From Pigmentiphaga aceris (GTDB lineage Bacteria > Pseudomonadota > Gammaproteobacteria > Burkholderiales > Burkholderiaceae_B): DNA of 64,000 bases. This document shows positions 31,397 through 45,336 of this stretch, piece by piece. Location: the NCBI RefSeq assembly GCF_008119665.1, contig NZ_CP043046.1, positions 2,790,001 through 2,854,000 of the forward strand. Direction: 5' to 3'. The position numbers and the translations under genes are program-made. Every line of letters begins with the position of its first letter. Positions within the stretch are counted from its first letter, which is position 1. The notes beneath the pieces are model-generated. The model ran no database searches, had not been told where the DNA came from, and worked only from the letters and a program-made list of their open reading frames with translations.

Positions 31397-33070
31397 ATGC
31401 GATTGCGATGTGGCCTGCTGGTGGGCCTGGTGTTATTGCTTGGGTGCACGAAGCAGGCAGATTCAGAACAAGCCAGCGGCAAACAGGCCAACAAAGAAGA
31501 GATCTATTTCGTCAGACAGCTGACGACAGTCAAGCACGGCGGCAGGGGCATGCCGGTTGCGCAATCGAGTTTCAGCGGTATCACAGTATCCAAGCAAAGC
31601 GACGGTGCGCTGACCACGCGCCAACGCACGCTCTGGTCCTGGCAGGCTGGCGGCGGAAGCGCCTCGGGCACGCTGAGCCTGAACCCCAATGATGCGGACG
31701 ACAAGCAGGTGCTGGCGCTGTTGGGCAGCGGCTTCGAGGCGTCGTTGAACAAGGACGGTAGCCTGAAAACCCTGAAAGCTGTCGATCAATCAGCATTTGA
31801 CTCGCTGGTGCAGGCCAAGCCTGAAGCCGCTGCCATCTTCACGTCGCGCGATTCGAGTTTGACTTCGGGTGTCATGCCCTTGACCCTGCCTGAGCAGGTG
31901 CGGGTAGGTCAGGAGTTTGTGCGCCAGGAACAGTCTGGCAAATTCGGCACGCTGAGTTCACGCATGCGCGTCACAGCGCTGACCGACGAGGTAGCGCTGG
32001 TCGATATCGAACTGAGCGGCGGCGGTGTTCAAGGTGGCGGGCAGCAAGCCATTCGCCGCCGTGACGGCATGCCTATCGAACTGCAATTCGAACTGACGCG
32101 CGAGGCCGATGACAAGCAGCCTGCCATCAGCATGCAACTCACCGCCAACAATATGGCGTATTCGAATTACATGACAATCGGCGCGGATGCGACGCTGTAT
32201 AAAACGCATCGCCAGGCCTTGCAGCGAATGCTTGCCAAGCCGCCATTTTCCGCCCAATCCGACGACCCCAAGGTGTATCGCTTGCAGCCTGCTTCCGAGG
32301 CCGACATGCCAAGCTGGATGCTATCGACTGCCGCACTTGATGCCATCGAGAAAGGCCTGAGCTTCGGGCTGGACAAGGATCACAACGCCCACCGGCCCCT
32401 GATTGTCTTGAAAGGAAAGATGCCGGGCAGCTCGCCTGCCAGCTTCAGGGATGCACCGACACAACCACTGCTGCTTGCCGAGTTGCGCAAGGCAACATTG
32501 ATGGACGCGTCTGGCCGCGAATTACCTGATCTGGCAACGATCCCGACGCACCGCAAGATCCTGTTCATGGACAGCTATCGTTCCACGGAATTGGACATCG
32601 ATTTCCCCTTCCGTTTGCCCTTGCAGACCCGGGCGGCGCAACTTACCGAGCTTGACACCATTCGGCTGGATGTCGGCGTAGAAACCTACGCATTGTCAGG
32701 CACCGAGACGCTGAAGGTCGGCGCGCAGTCCAAGGACAATGCCCAGCTTCGCATCGAGTGGCTGGGCCCGCAGCGCGTGACCCTTGCGCAGACGCGAGGG
32801 CACATGCAGACCAGCAAGGGAACCTGGACCGTTGCCGTACCGCTGGATGCAGACGGGAAGCAGATTCCTTCCGCCGCACTGCTGGCGAGCGCATTCGTAG
32901 ATCAAGACGATCCGCAGCGTCCTTACGTCCATGCTCCCTTGGACTGGGAGCTGCGCAATGTGTCCTCGGATTCGCATATTGCGACGGCGCAGCCGATCGC
33001 CGCGCTGCAGCTGCGTCATTACGCCTGGGAACAGGTGCCGCGTCAGTGGAATATCCGCGCCACGCCCTAG
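31397..33070 (+). CDS. predicted lipoprotein of unknown function, paralogue 1
   Basis: A 557-residue protein with a lipobox LLLGC (Cys17), so probably an outer-membrane or periplasmic lipoprotein. I do not recognise a domain. It is a clear paralogue of the next gene over its whole length; shared segments include SFSGITVSKQSDG, RMRVTALTDEVAL, GGGQQAIRR.DGMPIE and KVGAQSKDNAQ. The C-terminal third is beta-rich. The 5' leader is also shared (AGGACGTT, then CGAATGCGATTG), so the duplication included the ribosome binding site. Confidence 0.8.
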   Translation: MRLRCGLLVGLVLLLGCTKQADSEQASGKQANKEEIYFVRQLTTVKHGGRGMPVAQSSFSGITVSKQSDGALTTRQRTLWSWQAGGGSASGTLSLNPNDADDKQVLALLGSGFEASLNKDGSLKTLKAVDQSAFDSLVQAKPEAAAIFTSRDSSLTSGVMPLTLPEQVRVGQEFVRQEQSGKFGTLSSRMRVTALTDEVALVDIELSGGGVQGGGQQAIRRRDGMPIELQFELTREADDKQPAISMQLTANNMAYSNYMTIGADATLYKTHRQALQRMLAKPPFSAQSDDPKVYRLQPASEADMPSWMLSTAALDAIEKGLSFGLDKDHNAHRPLIVLKGKMPGSSPASFRDAPTQPLLLAELRKATLMDASGRELPDLATIPTHRKILFMDSYRSTELDIDFPFRLPLQTRAAQLTELDTIRLDVGVETYALSGTETLKVGAQSKDNAQLRIEWLGPQRVTLAQTRGHMQTSKGTWTVAVPLDADGKQIPSAALLASAFVDQDDPQRPYVHAPLDWELRNVSSDSHIATAQPIAALQLRHYAWEQVPRQWNIRATP

Positions 33071-33155: not shown

Positions 33156-34880
33156 ATGCGATTGAAATGTGTTGTATTGCTTGGTCTGGTGCTGTTGGCC
33201 GGATGTTCGAAGCAGGCTGTTGATTCGCAAGCTGGTGTGGGAACACCAGGCAAGGAAGAAATCTACTTCGTCATGCAGGTCATCACCGTAGATACGGGAA
33301 CCGTGCATATTCCGATCACGCAGCGCAGCTTCAGTGGTATCACTGTCTCCAAGCAAAGCGATGGCACGCAGACCATGCACCAGCGCACGCTGTGGTCACG
33401 GCAAGTCGGCAATGGAAGTACCTCGGGCACGCTGGGCATGGACCCGGACGACACCGACGGGAAGCAGGTGCTGGCACTGTTGGCGAGCGGCTTCAATGTG
33501 ACCGTCGACAAGGACGGCGGCGTGAAAGAGATTCGCGCGGTCGATCAGCAGGCGTTCTCTGCGCTGGTGCAGCGCAGACCGGAAGCCGCTGCCATGTTTA
33601 CCCCGCAAAGTTCCAACGCAGGGCTGCGCCCGATCGCGCTGCCAGACCGCCTGAGCGTCGGCCAGGAATTCACGCGTCAAGACCACGCTGGCAGCGCCGG
33701 CGCGGTTGGCGCACGCATGCGCGTCACAGCCTTGACCGACGACGTGGCAGTGGTCGATGTGCAGGTGGAAGGCGAGGGTGTCAGTGGTGGTGGTCAGCAA
33801 GCTATTCGCCGCCAGGACGGCATGCCGATCGAGATGCAATTCGAGCTGAGGCGCGAGGCCAAGGACGGCCAGCCCGCCAGTACGGTGCGGCTCAGTGCCA
33901 TCAACATGGCGCAGCCGCCGGAACTTGAGATCGAAGCCGATGCGAACATGTATCGCATCAACACTGACTTTGCTAAAGAGGCATTCGCCAAACCGCCGTT
34001 TTCTGCGCCTTCGGACGATGCAAGCCTCTACCGTCTGATTACCGAAAAAGAGGGTGAGCTGGCTCCCTGGATGCTGTCGCCTGCCGCCCTCGATCAGATC
34101 GACAAGCACATCTATTTTGGGGCACTCGATGAGCACAACACATCTCGTCCGGTGATTGCGATCGGCGGGAAGTTGCCAGCGGTGTCGTCCAAGGAAGTGG
34201 GCAATGAAGGCGCAAACGGCAGCGACGCTGATCGGTTTGGCCCCTTCGTGATGGCTCAGCTGCACAAGGCAACGCTGCTGGATGCAGCAGGCCGGGAACT
34301 ACCTGGTCTGACGACGGTGCCCGTGCACGCCAAGATCATGTTCATGGACGAGTACCGCAAGACTGAATTGGACGCGGATTTCCCGTTCCGTCTGCCTCTG
34401 CAGACCCGTGCTGAACAACTGACCAGCCTGGAAACCCTTCGCCTGGATATCGGCGTCGAGGCCTACACCTGGGCGGGTAGCGAGACGGTCAAGGTCGGCG
34501 CGCAGTCGAAGGACAATGCTCAGGTGCGGATCAAGTGGACTGGCCCGCAACGGGTCACGCTGGAACAGAACAGGACGCCGTTCGGTACGCGCCAGGGAAA
34601 GTGGACGGTCGCAGTTCCAGTCGATGCCGAGGGACGCCAGATTCCTTCGGCGATCATTGAGATGGCCAGCTACCTTGATAACAGCGATTCGCCGCGCCAG
34701 GAGGATCTGCCGCCGTTGAGCTGGTCTCACCGTACGCTGCCCATCAACCAGGATATTGCGGCATCGCAGCCCATCGCGGCGCTGCAATTACGCCACTACA
34801 ACTGGGAGCAATTGCAGCGCCAATGGAATCTTCGCAATGCTCGGAACGTGCCGGAGCCTGGGAAGCAGGGCGGTCAATAG
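33156..34880 (+). CDS. predicted lipoprotein of unknown function, paralogue 2
   Basis: A 574-residue paralogue of the preceding lipoprotein, with lipobox LLAGC (Cys17). Alignment by eye gives roughly half identical residues, strongest in the N-terminal 250 residues and in the KVGAQSKDNAQ/QRVTL region. It is slightly longer, partly from extra Gly/Asn residues near 330-360 (NEGANGSDADRFG). Separated by 85 bases from paralogue 1 and probably cotranscribed. No enzymatic motif is visible. The pair may interact, or may be diverging copies with separate partners. Confidence 0.8.
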   Translation: MRLKCVVLLGLVLLAGCSKQAVDSQAGVGTPGKEEIYFVMQVITVDTGTVHIPITQRSFSGITVSKQSDGTQTMHQRTLWSRQVGNGSTSGTLGMDPDDTDGKQVLALLASGFNVTVDKDGGVKEIRAVDQQAFSALVQRRPEAAAMFTPQSSNAGLRPIALPDRLSVGQEFTRQDHAGSAGAVGARMRVTALTDDVAVVDVQVEGEGVSGGGQQAIRRQDGMPIEMQFELRREAKDGQPASTVRLSAINMAQPPELEIEADANMYRINTDFAKEAFAKPPFSAPSDDASLYRLITEKEGELAPWMLSPAALDQIDKHIYFGALDEHNTSRPVIAIGGKLPAVSSKEVGNEGANGSDADRFGPFVMAQLHKATLLDAAGRELPGLTTVPVHAKIMFMDEYRKTELDADFPFRLPLQTRAEQLTSLETLRLDIGVEAYTWAGSETVKVGAQSKDNAQVRIKWTGPQRVTLEQNRTPFGTRQGKWTVAVPVDAEGRQIPSAIIEMASYLDNSDSPRQEDLPPLSWSHRTLPINQDIAASQPIAALQLRHYNWEQLQRQWNLRNARNVPEPGKQGGQ

Positions 34881-37013: not shown

Positions 37014-38144
37014 ATGAGCACCGTAGTCAGCAAGACCAATAAAAGCACGTCTGTCAGTTCTTCCCATGCCGATTCGTCCAGCACGACCTCGTCTGGCATG
37101 GCTGCATCCGATTCGAACACCAAGCGCTTCGACGCCTTGATTTTCATCGGCCGGTTTCAGCCGCCGCATCGTGGGCACATTGATGTCTTGCAACGCGCGC
37201 TGCGCCAAGCCGACCGCGTCTGCATTCTGATCGGTTCCACCGACAAGCCCCGTACCGTCAAAGATCCGTTCTCCTTCGACGAGCGCCGCGAAATGATTTC
37301 GTCGGTGTTAAGCGAAGCAGATCGTGCACGTGTGTTGATCGCGCCTGTGCAGGATTCGACCTACAACGACGGCGACTGGGTGCGCTGGGTGCAGGACGCA
37401 GTAGCTGCCTTGCTGGGTGACACCAGCGGCCGCAAGATCGGCCTGATCGGCCACGAAAAAGATGCCTCCAGCTATTACCTGCGCATGTTCCCGCAGTGGT
37501 CGTTGGTCGATGTCGATGCGACCGAAGACATCTCAGCCACCGAGATTCGCGAACAACTGTTTGCCGAACGCAGCAACAGCTTCGTGTCCTGGGCCGTACC
37601 AGCACCAGTGCGTGACTGGCTGGATGCATTCCGCGTCAAACCAGAATTTGCGCAGCTTGCGGCTGAATTCGAATTCATCGCCTCGTACAAGAAGGCGTGG
37701 GCAGCAGCGCCGTACCCAGTGACGTTCGTGACGGTCGACGCGGTGGTGGTGCATTCCGGCCATGTCCTGCTGATTCGCCGTCGTGCCGAACCCGGGCGCG
37801 GTCTGTGGGCGCTGCCGGGTGGCTTCATCGAACAAGGCGAGCGCCTGGAAGCGGCTTGCCTGCGCGAACTGCGCGAGGAAACCGGCCTGAAGTTGCCAGA
37901 ACCGGTGTTGCGCGGGTCTTTGAAAGACATGCATGTGTTTGACCACCCGCATCGTTCGCAACGCGGCCGCACGATCACCCACGCGTTTTTGTTCCACATG
38001 CCCACTGGTGAACTGCCGCGCGTGAAGGGCAGTGACGACGCCGACAAGGCAAAGTGGGTGCCGCTGAATGTGTTTGCGCAGATGCGCAACGTGATGTTCG
38101 AAGACCACTTCGACATCACCTACTACTTCCTTGGCAAGCTGTAG
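37014..38144 (+). CDS. nadM: bifunctional NMN adenylyltransferase/Nudix hydrolase
   Basis: A 376-residue two-domain enzyme. After a Ser/Thr-rich tail of about 37 residues, the NadM domain (about 38-200) has the nucleotide-binding motif GRFQPPHRGH (46-55) and the second motif ISATEIRE. A C-terminal Nudix domain (about 225-376) has the Nudix box with GGFIEQGE and RELREETGL. NadM joins NMN and ATP into NAD; the Nudix domain in such fusions hydrolyses ADP-ribose. GAGGGAGC precedes the ATG. It is followed by nadV, so the pair recycles nicotinamide to NAD without deamidation. Confidence 0.94.
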   Translation: MSTVVSKTNKSTSVSSSHADSSSTTSSGMAASDSNTKRFDALIFIGRFQPPHRGHIDVLQRALRQADRVCILIGSTDKPRTVKDPFSFDERREMISSVLSEADRARVLIAPVQDSTYNDGDWVRWVQDAVAALLGDTSGRKIGLIGHEKDASSYYLRMFPQWSLVDVDATEDISATEIREQLFAERSNSFVSWAVPAPVRDWLDAFRVKPEFAQLAAEFEFIASYKKAWAAAPYPVTFVTVDAVVVHSGHVLLIRRRAEPGRGLWALPGGFIEQGERLEAACLRELREETGLKLPEPVLRGSLKDMHVFDHPHRSQRGRTITHAFLFHMPTGELPRVKGSDDADKAKWVPLNVFAQMRNVMFEDHFDITYYFLGKL

Positions 38145-38240
38145 GCGCTGATCCCGTCAGCCACGCACGACGAATACCTGCTTTCCCCTGCCGGGACAGA
38201 CCCGGCAGTTTCTCCAACGGTCCAAGAGGAGCTCTTGACC

Positions 38241-39674
38241 ATGCAAAACGACTATTCCGGCCTGTCGTCTTTCCTGTCGAATCCCATTCTGAATACCGAT
38301 TCGTACAAGGCATCCCACTTCCTGCAATACCCCGCTGACGCCAGCGCGATGTTCTCGTATGTCGAGTCGCGCGGCGGCCGCTACGAACGCACCGTGTTCT
38401 TCGGCCTGCAGATGCTGTTGAAGCAGTACCTGTGCAAGCCGATCAACGACGACATGATCGACGAGGCCAAGGCCTTCTTTGCGGTGCACGGCGAACCCTT
38501 CAACGAGGCTGGCTGGCGCTACATCGTGACGCAGTACGGCGGCTACCTGCCGGTGCGCATTCGTGCGGTGCCGGAAGGCAGCGTGGTCCCCACCGGCAAT
38601 GTGCTGATGACTGTCGAATGTGACGACCCGCAGGTGTTTTGGCTGGCGTCCTATCTGGAAACCATGCTGCTGCGCGTGTGGTATCCCATCACCGTCGCCA
38701 CGCAAAGCTGGTACGTGCGCCAGACCATTCGCCGCGCGCTTGAAAAAAGCAGCGACGACATGACCCAGCTTCCTTTCAAGCTGCACGACTTCGGTGCCCG
38801 GGGCGTGTCCAGCGCTGAATCCGCAGCCATTGGCGGTGCAGCGCATTTGGTCAGCTTCATGGGGTCGGACACGGTGCTGGGCGTCATGGCCGCCAACCGC
38901 TATTACCGCGAAGACATGGCAGCGTATTCCGTGCCGGCAGCAGAACACAGCACCATCACCTCATGGGGGCGTGCCGGGGAAATCGATGCCTACGCCAACA
39001 TGATTCGCCGCTTTGCCAAGCCGGGAGCGATTGTCGCCGTGGTGTCCGATTCCTATGACCTGTTTGCCGCCTTGGAAATGTGGGGCACGCAGCTGAAGCA
39101 AAGCGTGATCGACTCGGGCGCGACCCTGGTGATTCGCCCGGATTCCGGCGACCCGCAGACCATCGTGATGGAATCCCTGCGCAGGCTCGACGGCTTCTTT
39201 GGCAGCACCGTCAACGGCAAGGGTCGGCGCGTGTTGAACCACGTGCGTGTGCTGCAAGGTGATGGCGTGAACCCGGACACCATCGAACAGATTCTGGCGG
39301 CGGCCGATCAGGCCGGTTATGCGGCCGACAACCTGGTGTTTGGCATTGGCGGTGCGCTGTTGCAGCGTGTGGATCGGGACACGCAACGCTTCGCAATGAA
39401 GTGCTCCGCGATCCGCCTGGGCGACACCTGGCACGACGTGGTCAAGGACCCGGTCACCGATACCGGCAAGCGTTCCAAGGGCGGGCGACTGACGCTGCTG
39501 CGCAATGCGCGCACGGGTGCCTATCGCACCGTTGCCGAACCGCGTCGCTGGGAAGAATCGATGATCGAAGGCGAGTGGGAGGATGCCATGCACACGGTGT
39601 TCGATACGGGTCGGCTACTGGTGGATACGTCCTTGGCTGACGTGCGTGTCCGTGCCCAGACGGAGGAATCATGA
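38241..39674 (+). CDS. nadV: nicotinamide phosphoribosyltransferase (NadV/NAMPT type)
   Basis: A 477-residue enzyme of the NAMPT branch of the nicotinate phosphoribosyltransferases, recognised from NTDSYKASHFLQYP near the N terminus, KLHDFGARGVSS in the middle, VVSDSYDLFAA and RPDSGDPQ, then FGIGGALLQ. It converts nicotinamide and PRPP to NMN, the substrate of NadM encoded just upstream. ATG 38241 is chosen because AGAGGAG ends 9 bases before it; the in-frame TTG two codons earlier is too close. Its stop overlaps the radical SAM start by 4 bases. Confidence 0.93.
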   Translation: MQNDYSGLSSFLSNPILNTDSYKASHFLQYPADASAMFSYVESRGGRYERTVFFGLQMLLKQYLCKPINDDMIDEAKAFFAVHGEPFNEAGWRYIVTQYGGYLPVRIRAVPEGSVVPTGNVLMTVECDDPQVFWLASYLETMLLRVWYPITVATQSWYVRQTIRRALEKSSDDMTQLPFKLHDFGARGVSSAESAAIGGAAHLVSFMGSDTVLGVMAANRYYREDMAAYSVPAAEHSTITSWGRAGEIDAYANMIRRFAKPGAIVAVVSDSYDLFAALEMWGTQLKQSVIDSGATLVIRPDSGDPQTIVMESLRRLDGFFGSTVNGKGRRVLNHVRVLQGDGVNPDTIEQILAAADQAGYAADNLVFGIGGALLQRVDRDTQRFAMKCSAIRLGDTWHDVVKDPVTDTGKRSKGGRLTLLRNARTGAYRTVAEPRRWEESMIEGEWEDAMHTVFDTGRLLVDTSLADVRVRAQTEES

Positions 39675-40942
39675 GCTTGTTCGATTCGATTGCGCTTGAT
39701 CGCGGCAGGGTGGTTGATAGACAGCCCAGGGCGGTGGAGCCGCGTCACCAGGCTGATTCGTCTGCAGGCGACCGTGTGCATACGTCTGCACAGCCCCGGG
39801 CCGCCAGCATCGTGCCGATTCCGATTGTGCCGTTCCAGGCTGCGCAGGGCAGGGCACCCCTGATCGAAGCCAGCGCCGCCTATCTGCAACTGCGCGCGCG
39901 TTTCGGTGAGCTTGCCTTGCGCGAGCCTGGGGAAGACGAACAGCATCGATGGCTGGCCCATGTATTGAACGGTCAGGCTTATCGCTTCGCCCAGCCGCTG
40001 ACCTTCACGCCCTATGCGTCTGCCCGCGCATGTTCGGCACGCTGCCGCTTCTGTTCAGAAACCTTGATCGATGAGTCTGCGTCTGGGCCGATGTCGGCCT
40101 CCTTGCGGCCCGGTGCCGATTACTTTGATGGCTTGAGTCGGGCCTTGCGTGCGTTGCGCGGGGTGCCGTTGTCGTACTCCTTGTCGGGCCTGGAAAACAC
40201 GGATGACCCGGACTGGTTGCTGAGCTTACTGAGCACGCTAACCCAAGTAGGCACCGCCGGCCCGGTGATTGAAGATCGCGTGATGTACACCAACGGCGCG
40301 GGGCTCGCGACCGATGGTGCGCGCCTGCTGCCCGCACTGCGCAACTTCGGGCTGTCCTGGCTGGAGTGGTCGCGGCACCATGACGATGCCGCGGCAAACC
40401 AGCAAATCATGCGGTTCCGTCATGACGAAGCCGTCATGAACCAGGACGTGTTCGAGCGCACGCTGGCCACCGCGCAGCAGGCTTTCCCGGTCAAGCTGAT
40501 CTGCATCGTGCAACAAGGCGGTATTGCCACTGCTACGGATGTCTTCCGCTACCTCGACTGGGCGCGCGACCTGGGAGTGCAGACGGTCATCTTCCGAGAA
40601 TTTTCGGTACTGCCAGATCGTTACCGGCGCAACGTCACGCGCCGCTATATTGATGATGCACGCGTGCCCATCGACACCTTGCTGACAGCATGCATGGCGG
40701 ACCCGGCGTTCAATGCGCAGTTCCAACCGCTTGCGCTCACCGGTGGGTATTACTTCTGGAACGCGCGTTGGCGTGGTCCGCAAGGCATGGAAGTGGTGTT
40801 CGAGACCTCGGACTATGGCGCGATGCGGGCGCACGAGGAATCTGGCGCGGTCTACAAGCTGGTGTTCCACGCCAACGGCAATCTGTGTTCAGGCTGGCAG
40901 CCATCGCGCGACGTTTTGTGGAGCGCCCATGAACAGCAATAG
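39671..40942 (+). CDS. radical SAM protein of unknown function
   Basis: A 423-residue protein with a radical SAM cluster motif CxxxCxxC at Cys121, Cys125 and Cys128 (ACSARCRFC), which would hold a 4Fe-4S cluster and S-adenosylmethionine. The first 110 residues are a poorly conserved Pro/Arg-rich leader. I see no auxiliary cluster motif or SPASM domain. Conserved-looking parts include YSLSGLENTDD after the first strands and GGYYFWNARWRGPQG near the C terminus. It is coupled by ATGA to nadV and overlaps the methyltransferase gene by 14 bases, so all four genes should act together. Substrate unknown. Confidence 0.82.
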   Translation: MSLFDSIALDRGRVVDRQPRAVEPRHQADSSAGDRVHTSAQPRAASIVPIPIVPFQAAQGRAPLIEASAAYLQLRARFGELALREPGEDEQHRWLAHVLNGQAYRFAQPLTFTPYASARACSARCRFCSETLIDESASGPMSASLRPGADYFDGLSRALRALRGVPLSYSLSGLENTDDPDWLLSLLSTLTQVGTAGPVIEDRVMYTNGAGLATDGARLLPALRNFGLSWLEWSRHHDDAAANQQIMRFRHDEAVMNQDVFERTLATAQQAFPVKLICIVQQGGIATATDVFRYLDWARDLGVQTVIFREFSVLPDRYRRNVTRRYIDDARVPIDTLLTACMADPAFNAQFQPLALTGGYYFWNARWRGPQGMEVVFETSDYGAMRAHEESGAVYKLVFHANGNLCSGWQPSRDVLWSAHEQQ

Positions 40943-42287
40943 TTGGCTGAAGCTCGACACGCAAGACCCACGTTATCAGCTGCCGGCCGAGTTGCAGGCC
41001 CAGGACCTGCGCGCGGCGCGAGATTGCGGCTGGGTCGAGCAGATGACCCCGTTCATCCAGCACTACGCGCAGCCCGGTGACTGGGTGATCGACCCATTCT
41101 GCGGCTTTGGGTCCACGTTGGTAGCGGCATCGATTGCCGGGCGGCCTGCGCTGGGTGTGGAACTGGATGCGCAGCGTGTCGCGCTGACGCGCGCGCGGCT
41201 GGACGGCTTGGGGCTGGATGCCAAGCGATATCCGGTGTGGCAGGGTAATCTGGCGGATGCTGGCACGCAGGAGCGATGCAGGGGCGGGCTGGGTAGTGTT
41301 GCGGGTGATGTGATGCCAGCGTCGTCGAATACGGCCCAATTTGTCGACAGTGCCTTGCCTACGCAAGGCGTTGCCGCCTCGCGTATCGGCCTGTGCCTGA
41401 CCAACATCCCGTATTTCGGTTGCGATCCAAACGAGCAGGGCGCACCAGACCAGCTTTATCACGCGCGTTATTACGAACCCTATCTGCAAGGTTTGCGCGA
41501 CGTGTTCAACGGCATACATGCTGTGCTGGCACCCGATGCCTGGTGCGTGGTCATGGTGCAGAACCTGCGTCTGGGCGGACGCTTCGTGCCGCTTGCGTGG
41601 GATGTGGCCAAGCTGCTGGACGAGCGGTTTGTGCTGCATGAGGAACGCATGCTGATTTATGAGCGTGGTGGGGAAGCAGTTCGGGATGCTGTTCGTGAGT
41701 CCACACGCGATCCTGTTCACGACGCTGCAAGACCGGGTCTGGGTGGCTTGTCTGTCACCAACCGTGCACACGAATACGCCTTGGTGTGTCGCAAGCAATC
41801 ACGTGGCTTGAATATCAACGCTGGGCTGGACTTGCTGCGAGCGCTGAATCAGGACGGTTTTGCGTTTGTGCTGTACGGCAGTTTTGCAGACTACCTTGAC
41901 CATCATGCAGCTGCTTCGGGGCAGTCGATCACGTCATTGGGCGACCTGCTGTCGATGCGCGAATCTGCGTCGGCGCAGCGGCATCGTGCGGACCCATCCG
42001 CCCCGCGCGAGCCGAACGATATCGACCTGATCGTTCCTCCCGACGAGGCAGAACTGTCGCGCCTGATGCAGCGCCTGGAACGTGACGGCTTTCGTCTTGA
42101 ATCGTGGAACGCGCGGGTCAATGCCCCGGTGGCAATAAAGGCACTGGCGTATCGCTACTATTTTCGTGCGCGCCGTGTGGATCAGGCCGGCCATGCCATG
42201 CAGTTGGACATCGCCGTGGCCGAGACGCAGGCAGTCTTTGACGATCAGCGGATGAAACGCTGTTCCACCACTTCCTTGCCCCACTGA
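40929..42287 (+). CDS. methyltransferase fused to a nucleotidyltransferase-like domain
   Basis: A 452-residue two-domain protein. The N-terminal half is a Rossmann methyltransferase of the nucleic-acid type: SAM motif DPFCGFGST (55-63) and catalytic-loop motif TNIPYF (158-163), a variant of (D/N)PPY. The C-terminal part (about 295-440) resembles a minimal nucleotidyltransferase, with YGSFADY (Gly317-Ser318), NDIDLIV (Asp364, Asp366) and a third acidic residue in QLDIAV (Asp427); about 45 residues are inserted between the GS and DxD motifs. GGAG supports ATG 40929, inside the radical SAM gene. Target (DNA, RNA or small molecule) unknown. Its 3' end overlaps the convergent MarR-GNAT gene by 43 bases. 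Confidence 0.78.
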   Translation: MNSNSWLKLDTQDPRYQLPAELQAQDLRAARDCGWVEQMTPFIQHYAQPGDWVIDPFCGFGSTLVAASIAGRPALGVELDAQRVALTRARLDGLGLDAKRYPVWQGNLADAGTQERCRGGLGSVAGDVMPASSNTAQFVDSALPTQGVAASRIGLCLTNIPYFGCDPNEQGAPDQLYHARYYEPYLQGLRDVFNGIHAVLAPDAWCVVMVQNLRLGGRFVPLAWDVAKLLDERFVLHEERMLIYERGGEAVRDAVRESTRDPVHDAARPGLGGLSVTNRAHEYALVCRKQSRGLNINAGLDLLRALNQDGFAFVLYGSFADYLDHHAAASGQSITSLGDLLSMRESASAQRHRADPSAPREPNDIDLIVPPDEAELSRLMQRLERDGFRLESWNARVNAPVAIKALAYRYYFRARRVDQAGHAMQLDIAVAETQAVFDDQRMKRCSTTSLPH

Positions 42288-43336
42288 CTACCGGGTTGTT
42301 CTTCTGCCAGCTTGAAACCGGCTTCTTCATAAAGCCGCCTGGCTGCATCCAGGCTTTTGAAGGTCCACAAGTGGACGGCGGCAAAGCCCTGGCGATCGCA
42401 AAAGTCCAGGGCTTGCGCCAGCAACTGGCGGCCAAGACCTGCACCACGCAGGCCGTCGTCAACGATGAACCAGCGTAGATGCGCAAGGTTTTGGCCGAGG
42501 TCTTCACCGTCGATAGACACGCTGCCCACAATCCGGTCGCCTTGCGTGGCGATCCACATGCTGTTGCGTGGGTTGCCAAGCCGGCCGGTGAACTCGGCCA
42601 GTCCAGCCGCTACCTTGCTTTCAAAGAACTGTCCGAAGCCTGCGTGTCGGGCGTAGAAGCGGGCATGCATTTCCGTGATCCGTCCGATTGCGCCTGCCTG
42701 GTAACCGGGGGCAATCTGTATTGCGGATGCGGTCTCGGCGTTGATTGCCTTGACGCCGATTGGCTCTGCACTGGTTGCGTGTGCATCAGTTGCGTCTGGG
42801 TGCAGGGCTTTCGCGTTGCTTGCTGCCATATTGGCTGCTGCGATGTTGGTTGCGACACTGCTCGTTGTGATGCTGTCCACGGCCGTGCTGATCGCTTCAC
42901 CCAATCGATGCGCTTTCAAGGCACCGGCGTAGGCCGTCAACCCCTGACCAACTGCTTGTTGCTGATCGGCCCGCAAGTGTGCCAATGCGGTGGTGACTTG
43001 TTGCCGACCAAAGTCTTGAATGGACGCCCTGGTGTGTTCTCCCCTGGACGTCAAGCTAAGCAGTTTGGCACGGCCGTCTTGGCCGCTGGCGGTTTCTTGC
43101 AGCTCGCCCGCTTCGACCAGTTTGCGCACCATTCGGCTGACGCTGGATTTTTCCAGGCCTAGAAAATCCGACAGTTCTGCGGCGGTCATTGACCCACGTG
43201 CCCCGATTTCCAGAATGGTGTGCACTGCTGACGCGGGGTAGTTTGTCGCGGCCAGGGTTGCCTGCATGAAGCCCAGTTCTCGCACCATCTGACGCGAAGC
43301 GGCGCGGATCGTATCAACAAACTCGTGCTTGGACAT
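42245..43336 (-). CDS. MarR-type HTH fused to GNAT acetyltransferase
   Basis: A 363-residue fusion. Residues 1-145 form a MarR winged HTH (AAELSDFLGLEKSSVSRMVRKL, then the DGRAK wing). Residues about 225-363 form a GNAT domain with the acetyl-CoA motif DDGLRGAGLGRQLL and the late LWTFKSLDAARRLYEEAGF. Between them lies an unusual Ala/Ser/Thr-rich linker of about 75 residues. MarR-GNAT fusions are common in Proteobacteria; their targets are mostly unknown. The gene is convergent with the methyltransferase gene. Confidence 0.9.
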   Translation of the reverse strand: MSKHEFVDTIRAASRQMVRELGFMQATLAATNYPASAVHTILEIGARGSMTAAELSDFLGLEKSSVSRMVRKLVEAGELQETASGQDGRAKLLSLTSRGEHTRASIQDFGRQQVTTALAHLRADQQQAVGQGLTAYAGALKAHRLGEAISTAVDSITTSSVATNIAAANMAASNAKALHPDATDAHATSAEPIGVKAINAETASAIQIAPGYQAGAIGRITEMHARFYARHAGFGQFFESKVAAGLAEFTGRLGNPRNSMWIATQGDRIVGSVSIDGEDLGQNLAHLRWFIVDDGLRGAGLGRQLLAQALDFCDRQGFAAVHLWTFKSLDAARRLYEEAGFKLAEEQPGSQWGKEVVEQRFIR

Positions 43337-43449: not shown

Positions 43450-43833
43450 CAGTCGTGGGTGTCGGGGGCGCGTCGCCTGCCCCGCTGGACTTTCGCGTCG
43501 GGTCTCCCGCCCTCCACGTCGTCCAGAAGGGCAGCCGCCACGCCCCCGACACCCACGCCTTCAAGGTCGTTTGGTTAAAAGCAGATCCCGCCTGTGGGCG
43601 ATCTGCAATTTTCTGGCTGCTTGGTGCTGGATGCGGTTCTCGGCATGCGGCGGCCACCGTCCTTAATCGCCAAACGGCTGGCCTTGCGGACCGGCTGCCC
43701 AGGTCGCCACGAAGCGACTCAGCGGCTCACGTTTCGGGCCGTTCTTTAGAGGCCTTTCAGAGCAGCGCCACGCAAGGAAGTTACGCGCCTGCTTGGTGGT
43801 GGGGTAACTTGGAAGCGGGTGGCCGCGCATCAG
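43450..43833 (+). repeat. left copy of a ~385-bp structured inverted element
   Basis: Runs from CAGTCGTGGGTG to GGTGGCCGCGCATCAG and is homologous, at about 75-80% by eye, to the reverse complement of 43952-44337. It opens with a long hairpin: a perfect 17-bp outer stem (43454-43470 with 43541-43557), an inner stem CTGCCC/TGGAC paired with GTCCA/GGGCAG (43477-43490 with 43521-43534) and a small apical CGGG-TCT-CCCG hairpin. Shared blocks after it include GGTTAAAAGC, CTGGCTGCTTGGTGCTG and CAGGTCGCCACGAAGCG. Confidence 0.85.
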
Positions 43834-43951
43834 GTAATGCGACGAAAAGGCGGGGCGTCGACCGATTATTCAGCTAGGTATGCGGTAAACGCTCGAAACC
43901 GTATATTCAGCCGCCAGCGCCACGATCGTCGCTTCCGCTCTCCGCATGCCG

Positions 43952-44337
43952 TGATGCGGCGGCCACCCGCTTCGGTGTCACCCCACCATTAAGCAGACGC
44001 GCAAATTTTCTTAAGTGGCGCTGCCGTAAAAGGCAACTGAAGAACCCACCGAATCGCGAGCCGGAGAGACCGCTTCGTGGCGACCTGACCAGCGAATCCC
44101 CCCGGCCAGCCGTATGGCGATCAAGAATGGCGGCCACCGAATGCCGAGCACCGCATACAGCACCAAGCAGCCAGCAAAACGGCAAACGCCCAAAGGCGGG
44201 ATCAGCTTTTAACCAAACCGCTTTGAAGGCGTGGGTGGTGGGGCCGGATTGGCTGCCCTTCTGGACGAGGTGGAGGGCGGGAGTCCCGACGCCAACGTCC
44301 AGCGGGGCAGACGAGCCGGCCCCACCACCCGCGACTG
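43952..44337 (-). repeat. right copy of the structured element, inverted
   Basis: Homologous in reverse complement to 43450-43833 along its whole length. Its hairpin has a perfect 15-bp outer stem, GGGTGGTGGGGCCGG (44233-44247) with CCGGCCCCACCACCC (44316-44330), which differs in sequence from the left copy at three positions on each arm, every change compensated. The inner stem is unchanged. The preserved pairing with changed sequence indicates selection on structure. No transposase or inverted terminal repeat of a known IS was found nearby. Confidence 0.85.
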
Positions 44338-44418: not shown

Positions 44419-45336
44419 TCAAACCGCCCGCCACCGCAAAGGCAGTGCGTTGGCTCGATACACCACTTGCCTTGGCGTGAATCGCCACAGCCGTTCAGCA
44501 CCTGGGAAATCAGCCGTGCCCACGCGGTCCGGCATCACCTCCGCGTCACCGGTCAAATGCAGCAAACTGCCCGACGCAAAATCAACGAACAACAGGCCAG
44601 CCCTCGGATTCACCAGCAAATTCCCAAGCGTGTTGAAAAACCGATTCCCCGCATAGTCGGGAATAGTCAGCACTCCATCATTGCCGACATGCACAAACCC
44701 CGCGCGCCCACCGCGGTGCGACACATCAACCTGACGGCCATCATCCGTGTCGGCATACGACGCCACAAAAAAGGTATCAGCCTGCGTCACCATTGCCGCC
44801 AACGCAGGATCAAGCTGAGTCATGTACTGCGCCCTGCGCACCGTCACATCCGCAGCCGGCGCGTGCTGCTCAATGTGTCTCGGATGGATGTACTGCGGGC
44901 AATTACCAAAACTCTGCGCAACTTCGATACTGAAGCTGTCATCCGTCGTGCGACGCACCTTGCCATTGACCCGAATACGATGACGATGGGCCAGATCAAT
45001 GCCCAGCAATCCCATCGACAGACCATCGCTCATTCCAACATCGGCTGGGTCGCTCGCGTCGCGCGGCATGGCAATCGACACGTGCCGGGCGTCAGTGGCA
45101 TGCACAAAACCCGCTTCGCCTGCCAGCAAGCTTGCCCAGGCGTTCCCCTCTGCATCGACCGCACCTACGACAACAAAAGGCAGATACGACAGGAAATCCT
45201 GAAACTGCTCAGGCACAGTCTGACGAATCCATCTCGGCCCCAACTCCAGCATGCGCTTGGCAACGCCGACGCGTTGTTGAAGCTGGATTTCACCCGCATG
45301 CCAGGGGAACGTAGGCGAGGTGGATGCATCATGCAT
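44419..45336 (-). CDS. pyridoxamine 5'-phosphate oxidase-like flavin protein
   Basis: A 305-residue member of the PPOX/FMN-binding split-barrel group, of the long type with two barrel-like halves. Segments such as FLSYLPFVVVGAVDAEGNAWASLLAG, FFVASYADTDDGRQVDVSHRGG and VHVGNDGVLTIPDYAGN are typical. It probably binds FMN; the reaction is unknown. AGGAG precedes the ATG by 8 bases. It is divergent from a LysR gene, its likely regulator. Confidence 0.85.
   Translation of the reverse strand: MHDASTSPTFPWHAGEIQLQQRVGVAKRMLELGPRWIRQTVPEQFQDFLSYLPFVVVGAVDAEGNAWASLLAGEAGFVHATDARHVSIAMPRDASDPADVGMSDGLSMGLLGIDLAHRHRIRVNGKVRRTTDDSFSIEVAQSFGNCPQYIHPRHIEQHAPAADVTVRRAQYMTQLDPALAAMVTQADTFFVASYADTDDGRQVDVSHRGGRAGFVHVGNDGVLTIPDYAGNRFFNTLGNLLVNPRAGLLFVDFASGSLLHLTGDAEVMPDRVGTADFPGAERLWRFTPRQVVYRANALPLRWRAV

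Follow-up and report, generated by a model that had tools for sequence, protein, structure and literature searches.

Which process is served by a radical S-adenosylmethionine (SAM) gene and a methyltransferase-nucleotidyltransferase (MT-NT) gene that stand at the end of a nicotinamide adenine dinucleotide (NAD) salvage operon in Pigmentiphaga aceris? The window, that is, the whole stretch of DNA analysed, comprises 64,000 nt (contig NZ_CP043046.1, 2,790,001 to 2,854,000), and all positions given below are window-based. Four genes lie head to tail on its plus strand: nadM-Nudix (37014..38144), for a bifunctional nicotinamide mononucleotide (NMN) adenylyltransferase/Nudix hydrolase; nadV (38241..39674, with an alternative TTG start at 38235), for nicotinamide phosphoribosyltransferase; the radical SAM gene (39671..40942), which is covered by no family model; and the MT-NT gene (40929..42287). 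A gap of 96 bases separates nadM from nadV, nadV overlaps the radical SAM gene by 4 bases (ATGA, 39671..39674), and the radical SAM gene overlaps the MT-NT gene by 14 bases (40929..40942), exactly as a first-pass annotation of this DNA had placed them. The results obtained in the present study provide good support for the last two genes being a self-contained two-gene module, and this module is very probably linked to NAD metabolism.

A profile search of genome contigs yielded 108 confirmed relatives, and the locus counts given here refer to the best 80 of these 108. The MT and NT domains were both present in 74 of the 80 loci; in the remaining ones the radical SAM gene stood alone (L009, L074 and L076, the last two from Myxococcota), the MT lay at a contig end (L030), or the radical SAM gene was accompanied by a stand-alone NT (L052 and L083). 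In 73 of 75 loci the radical SAM and MT-NT genes overlapped, by 1 to 26 bases, and the other two loci had gaps of 4 and 8 bases. For all of these values the MT-NT start was placed at whichever start codon lay closest to a conserved Ser-Trp, and single overlap values may therefore be slightly off. Overlap at this frequency means that the coupling of the two genes is more than chance. A stand-alone NT homologue follows the radical SAM gene in Hymenobacter and in a planctomycete metagenome-assembled genome (MAG), and on the Hymenobacter swuensis plasmid these two genes overlap by 4 bases. Within the Hymenobacter lucidus genome and the H. swuensis plasmid record (the H. swuensis chromosome lay outside the search), matches were to the NT only, and further matches in the planctomycete, Myxococcota and Burkholderia Ac-20379 genomes were short methyltransferase-motif stretches. 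Because these Hymenobacter and planctomycete loci have a stand-alone NT and no MT partner, the core of the module appears to be the radical SAM protein plus the NT, with the methyltransferase fused to the NT in Proteobacteria. Judged by titles and abstract openings, nothing on the pair was found in the literature on nadV or nicotinamide phosphoribosyltransferase together with radical SAM proteins, and no report was found in the literature on NrtR, radical SAM and NAD, although a mention in the 2008 description of NrtR is not excluded.

The NAD context was determined by tblastn (expect value, E, 1e-20) over the available stretch of the 80 loci, and three arrangements were seen. Both nadM and nadV accompany the pair in 37 loci (26 Xanthomonas, 8 Lysobacter, 2 Lysobacterales MAGs and 1 Paraburkholderia). 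A nicotinamidase-like gene, pncB, nadE and nadM with a divergent nrtR were found in five loci (4 Herbaspirillum and 1 Burkholderiales MAG), and nrtR alone in three (Massilia and two Pseudoduganella). The distance between nadM and the radical SAM gene reached up to about 1 kb in one MAG (L039), such spacings being measured to the start of the hidden Markov model match, which lies inside the protein. The nicotinamidase-like gene of the Herbaspirillum NAD operon (L062:2944-3816) had no match in Pfam (E 1e-4) or NCBIfam (1e-5), and its product is presumed to be nicotinamidase-like from motifs of that type recognised by eye. Four NrtR proteins matched PF21906 above the gathering threshold. In L034, L049 and L077, nrtR is kept beside the radical SAM gene, and there is neither nadV nor a full-length nadM-Nudix.

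Between nrtR and the divergent gene, and nowhere else among the 108 loci, an operator-like block was found in seven loci, that is, in seven of the eight nrtR loci; as its pattern was written from the same intergenic regions, this count is no independent test. The block precedes the nicotinamidase-like gene in four loci and the radical SAM gene in three, while L054 has a near match only. When the intergenic regions were compared against 300 mononucleotide shuffles, six of the eight pairs beat all of the shuffles, one was reached by a single shuffle and one by three; L062 and L049 have a common ungapped block of 35 bases. Judging from sequence, we regard this block as a candidate NrtR operator of the Oxalobacteraceae loci. 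Since the nrtR loci form one clade, a single ancestral promoter may have been kept before the module, either after the other NAD genes had left or before they came.

Co-occurrence across whole genomes was followed in 50 hand-chosen genomes of the 80. In 33 of them nadV was present (in one planctomycete as two contig-end pieces), and in 17 it was absent; a full-length nadM-Nudix was found in 39 (E < 1e-60, places listed), the remainder having matches of Nudix size only. Among 369 genomes of the class, the profile of the radical SAM gene was found in four, two of them at full strength, with a weaker partial match in G301 (E 5e-20, model 72-300) left out of the strict counts, and nadV was found in 17, weak matches included. 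Both full-strength genomes have nadV, and without the window's own genome the Fisher test gave p 0.043, which is too little to lean on. Variovorax was more informative: among 61 genomes, seven carry the radical SAM gene and 16 carry nadV, the two genes not being adjacent, and nadV was present in 6 of the 7 with the radical SAM gene against 10 of the 54 without it (p 8.5e-4, by a statistic that ignores kinship); adding five further radical SAM genomes, three of them with nadV, gave 9 of 12 against 10 of 54. Taken together, these contexts give good support to the NAD link of the pair being real and not specific to nadV.

At the same time, the first-pass annotation had gone further and concluded from the tight coupling that the four proteins serve one process. 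The coupling stood for the last two genes, which are a unit and lie beside NAD genes in several arrangements, but not for the unity of four proteins: 35 of the 80 loci have no NAD gene nearby and 17 of the 50 genomes have no nadV, and one obligate process does not agree with the Oxalobacteraceae, in which the pair adjoins the deamidating genes or nrtR alone. The possibility, raised with that annotation, that homologues would occur mostly without nadM and nadV was borne out in part, as 38 of the 80 loci lack both and 42 have nadM, 26 of these 42 being from Xanthomonas.

The history of the window copy brings in a different explanation. Across 200 genomes from the family, the radical SAM profile was found only in the genome that contains the window, and hence in one of the 11 from the genus; nadV occurs in two of the 11 congeners, the second copy being only 34-35% identical; the GC content of the window in 1500-base steps is ordinary and gives no island signal. 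The tree was built by a quick method from the window and 57 of the 80 loci, including 18 of the 37 that have nadM and nadV, with the long branches of L083 and L081 meeting in it; five rows with short flanks were unlabelled, and L076 and L083, both non-Proteobacteria, were labelled as having no NAD link. NAD-linked loci fall at three places: the Oxalobacteraceae with L039, the window with Paraburkholderia beside the Burkholderia group, and the Lysobacteraceae. Three changes are needed for NAD versus none and six for four labels. The rarity in the genus and the tree placement suggest that the window genes were transferred as a cassette. Such transfer, together with the 35 unlinked loci, would suit a pair that is a mobile independent unit, lying near NAD genes by chance or through indirect use of NAD metabolites and having no functional link to them. 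We consider this unlikely: NAD genes adjoin the pair in three arrangements, the nrtR-side block recurs before both the nicotinamidase-like and the radical SAM gene, and nadV co-occurs in Variovorax without adjacency, all of which chance explains poorly.

The first two proteins of the operon were recognisable from sequence as ordinary salvage enzymes, in agreement with their first-pass identities. NadM scored 704.9 bits on NF003787 (cut-off 449) and has a solved relative, 2qjo (E 4.5e-95). NadV scored 95.4 bits on the NAMPT_N domain PF18127 (cut-off 25), was likewise above gathering on PF04095, and 30 of its 32 matches among solved chains are named nicotinamide phosphoribosyltransferase; the best two are titled "Pre-B cell enhancing factor related protein", which we take to be a former name of nicotinamide phosphoribosyltransferase. 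Its best NCBIfam model carries the name nicotinate phosphoribosyltransferase; despite this name, the NAMPT_N domain indicates that NadV acts on nicotinamide, and so do its solved relatives.

The radical SAM protein had been described as lacking a recognised subfamily, and so it remained. It carries the CX3CX2C motif for a [4Fe-4S] cluster as CSARCRFC at residues 121-128 (40031..40054, plus strand), with C121, C125 and C128 invariant in all 79 aligned rows; at the same time, the window protein matched neither the Pfam superfamily PF04055 nor any NCBIfam model, and one relative (P0116) scored 27.3 bits on PF04055, below the gathering threshold of 29.5. The viperin model NF038283 was matched by five of the 79 rows (best E 0.05) and not by the window protein, and two MoaA models by one row each (E 0.16 and 0.18). 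The structure model (predicted local distance difference test, pLDDT, 89.5) had radical SAM enzymes with the partial TIM barrel fold as its top structural matches; the predicted fold was nearest to MoaA and the archaeal lipid synthase GDGT-MAS, which tied, followed by peptide enzymes and viperin (VIA-align), with RlmN well below MoaA and viperin.

The peptide enzymes among these matches raise the alternative that the radical SAM enzyme matures a peptide or protein and that the NT attaches a nucleotide to it; MdcG, for its part, adds a nucleotide to acyl carrier protein. The window protein contains six Cys residues in total (121, 125, 128, 278, 341 and 406) and no CXXC after residue 128, and a SPASM-type Cys set is therefore lacking. 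No conserved small peptide gene was found among the clusters of open reading frames of at least 90 aa that passed a third-position GC (GC3) filter, shorter ones being missed. Peptide maturation is thus quite improbable.

The two-domain architecture proposed for MT-NT was upheld by its motifs and conserved NT residues, with domain borders that are approximate. The MT domain (about residues 1-292, 40929..41804, plus strand) has motifs at residues 55-60 and 158-164, the latter being motif IV, T[NS][IVL]PYF[GA], here TNIPYFG (41400..41420), in 80 of 80 rows. Its predicted core is a Trm11/TrmN-type methyltransferase fold in Foldseek, with small-molecule methyltransferases close behind. PF01555, the DNA N6/N4 methyltransferase family, was matched with 45.6 bits (gathering 26.7) over 48 of 221 profile positions, which represent the motif I stretch; motif IV of DNA N6/N4 methyltransferases is (D/N/S)PP(Y/F/W), and T[NS][IVL]PYF stands in its place in all 80 rows. 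The NT domain (about residues 293-452 plus stop, 41805..42287, plus strand) has the residues typical of Pol-beta-like nucleotidyltransferases, G317-S318, D364-x-D366 and D427; G317, D364, D366 and D427 are present in 80 of 80 rows and S318 in 75, and the three Asp residues are invariant in 12 of 12 NT rows, three stand-alone forms among them. Family scores of the NT were weak (PF14907 in 7 of 12 rows, best E 0.0014; TM1012, E 0.035), and the fold search of MT-NT was filled by matches of the MT domain.

The Trm11-like core raises the alternative that the pair modifies tRNA or rRNA, with the radical SAM and MT parts altering one nucleotide and the NT recognising or extending an RNA end. No THUMP or other RNA-binding addition was found in the MT-NT model, and an N-terminal THUMP is excluded by motif I, which is already at residue 55 and leaves no space ahead. 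The closeness of small-molecule methyltransferases, the low rank of RlmN and the rarity of the radical SAM gene (in the class, 4 of 369 genomes), a rarity not shared by most tRNA modification genes, also argue against this alternative, and it leaves the NAD context unexplained. We therefore consider RNA modification rather unlikely.

The reading favoured here is a pathway of nucleotide tailoring that is linked to NAD metabolism, which corresponds to the nucleotide-derived cofactor among the first-pass readings. It is favoured because of the radical SAM fold, the Trm11-like MT without an RNA-binding part and the NT, all of them predictions, and because the genes track NAD supply. Several beta- and gammaproteobacterial lineages have the module inside an NAD salvage operon or next to nrtR, the NAD regulator gene. 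In the proposed pathway, the substrate of the MoaA/viperin-like enzyme would be a nucleotide that comes from the nicotinamide nucleotide pool or is co-controlled with that pool, and the enzyme would change it by radical chemistry; methylation of a base or amino group would fall to the Trm11-like domain; and the NT would join a nucleotide to the product, by analogy with MobA and MocA, which add a nucleotide in molybdenum cofactor synthesis. What results would be a cofactor or signal in the form of a modified nucleotide or dinucleotide. As a whole statement this reading is tentative and falls short of probable; its proposed chemistry, with substrate, order of steps and product, is doubtful, and a still more specific version, in which a new nicotinamide or adenine nucleotide (cofactor or signal) is rearranged, methylated and made into a dinucleotide under NAD-responsive control, is less likely again.

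Several observations weigh against nucleotide tailoring tied to NAD. No nadM, nadV, nrtR, pncB, nadE or nicotinamidase-like gene was found in the available stretch of the 35 unlinked loci, of which five have less than 3 kb upstream and 30 have more. The window itself contains no match to nrtR at E 1e-5 and no operator-like block, and the NrtR proteins of the other loci reach only 161-178 bits on the NCBIfam NtrR model, below its cut-off of 400. Independent events of NAD linkage appear to be few, as the nrtR loci are one clade and only three changes are needed on the tree. The Variovorax comparison has no kinship control, one of its seven radical SAM genomes lacks nadV, and in two genomes of Variovorax beijingensis the radical SAM gene occurs without nadV; the Burkholderia sample was uninformative (nadV in 8 of 8 with the gene against 42 of 53 without, p 0.33, with the weak partial match of G710 counted as without). 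As to chemistry, fold similarity names no substrate, MoaA being tied with a lipid enzyme and peptide enzymes being level with viperin, and by sequence profile the MT has its best solved match in a DNA modification methylase, where the match covers the motif I stretch.

An anti-phage role, by restoring NAD or by modifying nucleic acid, was also among the first-pass readings and is very improbable. NadM and NadV have relatives in phages (phrog_395 and phrog_448), the radical SAM model has a viperin-like fold, a distant radical SAM relative occurs in Dulem virus 40, and PADLOC matched the Nudix part of NadM (PDC-S07) and MT-NT (generic MTase_II, more weakly PglX and mad2). The same PADLOC scan gave no family for the radical SAM protein and none for NadV, no relative was found in the viral contigs of the A1 scan, and the neighbours in the loci inspected by eye resemble housekeeping genes; a Pfam scan of five window neighbours gave matches to non-defence families for three and no match for two. 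A defence role was accordingly dropped, as it gained no support from PADLOC and PHROG scans, viral-contig scans, or tblastn against phages and plasmids. These searches returned Dulem virus 40 (24.5% identity), three plasmid records, one of them a Hymenobacter record with radical SAM and NT, and short motif-level methyltransferase matches in 48 phage records and 9 viral contigs; all of these were rejected as defence evidence. Encoded at L003:5806-6837, the Dulem virus 40 protein is a full-length distant relative of the radical SAM protein (149.8 bits); its gene adjoins another radical SAM gene (PF04055) and one annotated as NAT. Relatives of the Dulem protein in three viral contigs gave no hint of function.

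Additionally, some features of the window around the operon were recorded. A minus-strand gene for a MarR-type helix-turn-helix fused to a GNAT domain (42245-43336) is convergent with the MT-NT gene and overlaps its 3' end by 43 bases. It is followed by an inverted repeat (43450-44337) with arms at 43450-43830 and 43954-44337, 81% identical and 123 bases apart, of which no further arm copy was found within the window, and by a minus-strand gene (44419-45336) for a protein with two pyridoxamine phosphate oxidase-like stretches. Upstream, two tandem plus-strand genes (31397-33070 and 33156-34880) look lipoprotein-like by eye, their proteins being 57% identical; the second had no Pfam match up to E 1.

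An enzyme pair that follows NAD genes and has no assigned reaction is a testable gap in a well-mapped metabolism. It indicates a step in nucleotide metabolism that is yet to be described, for which the gene context suggests candidate substrates: NMN, NAD, ADP-ribose, nicotinamide and nucleoside triphosphates.

Compared with known systems, the module stands apart in several respects. MoaA (GTP 3',8-cyclase), at the head of the MoaA...MobA/MocA route to the molybdenum cofactor, carries a second C-terminal [4Fe-4S] Cys set, CX2CX13C, which is lacking here, as no CXXC follows residue 128; the family scores agree with this difference, the window protein matching no NCBIfam model and single rows only reaching the two MoaA models. 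From viperin and the prokaryotic viperins the radical SAM family differs in having no significant family score, and we know of no fused MT/NT partner or NAD context for viperins. In the Trm11/TrmN/Trm14 tRNA guanine-N2 methyltransferases, motif IV of the Trm11 type is (D/N)PPY, whereas the MT domain here has T[NS][IVL]PYF, lacks a THUMP and is fused to an NT. In the part of it available, the account of the NrtR regulon in PMC5343134 names no radical SAM member. The window differs from NrtR-controlled NAD salvage operons (pncA/pncB/nadE, nadM/nadV) in having no nrtR, and the relatives resemble them in the nrtR, pncB, nadE and nadM genes that stand beside the pair in five loci and in the nrtR that stands alone beside it in three.

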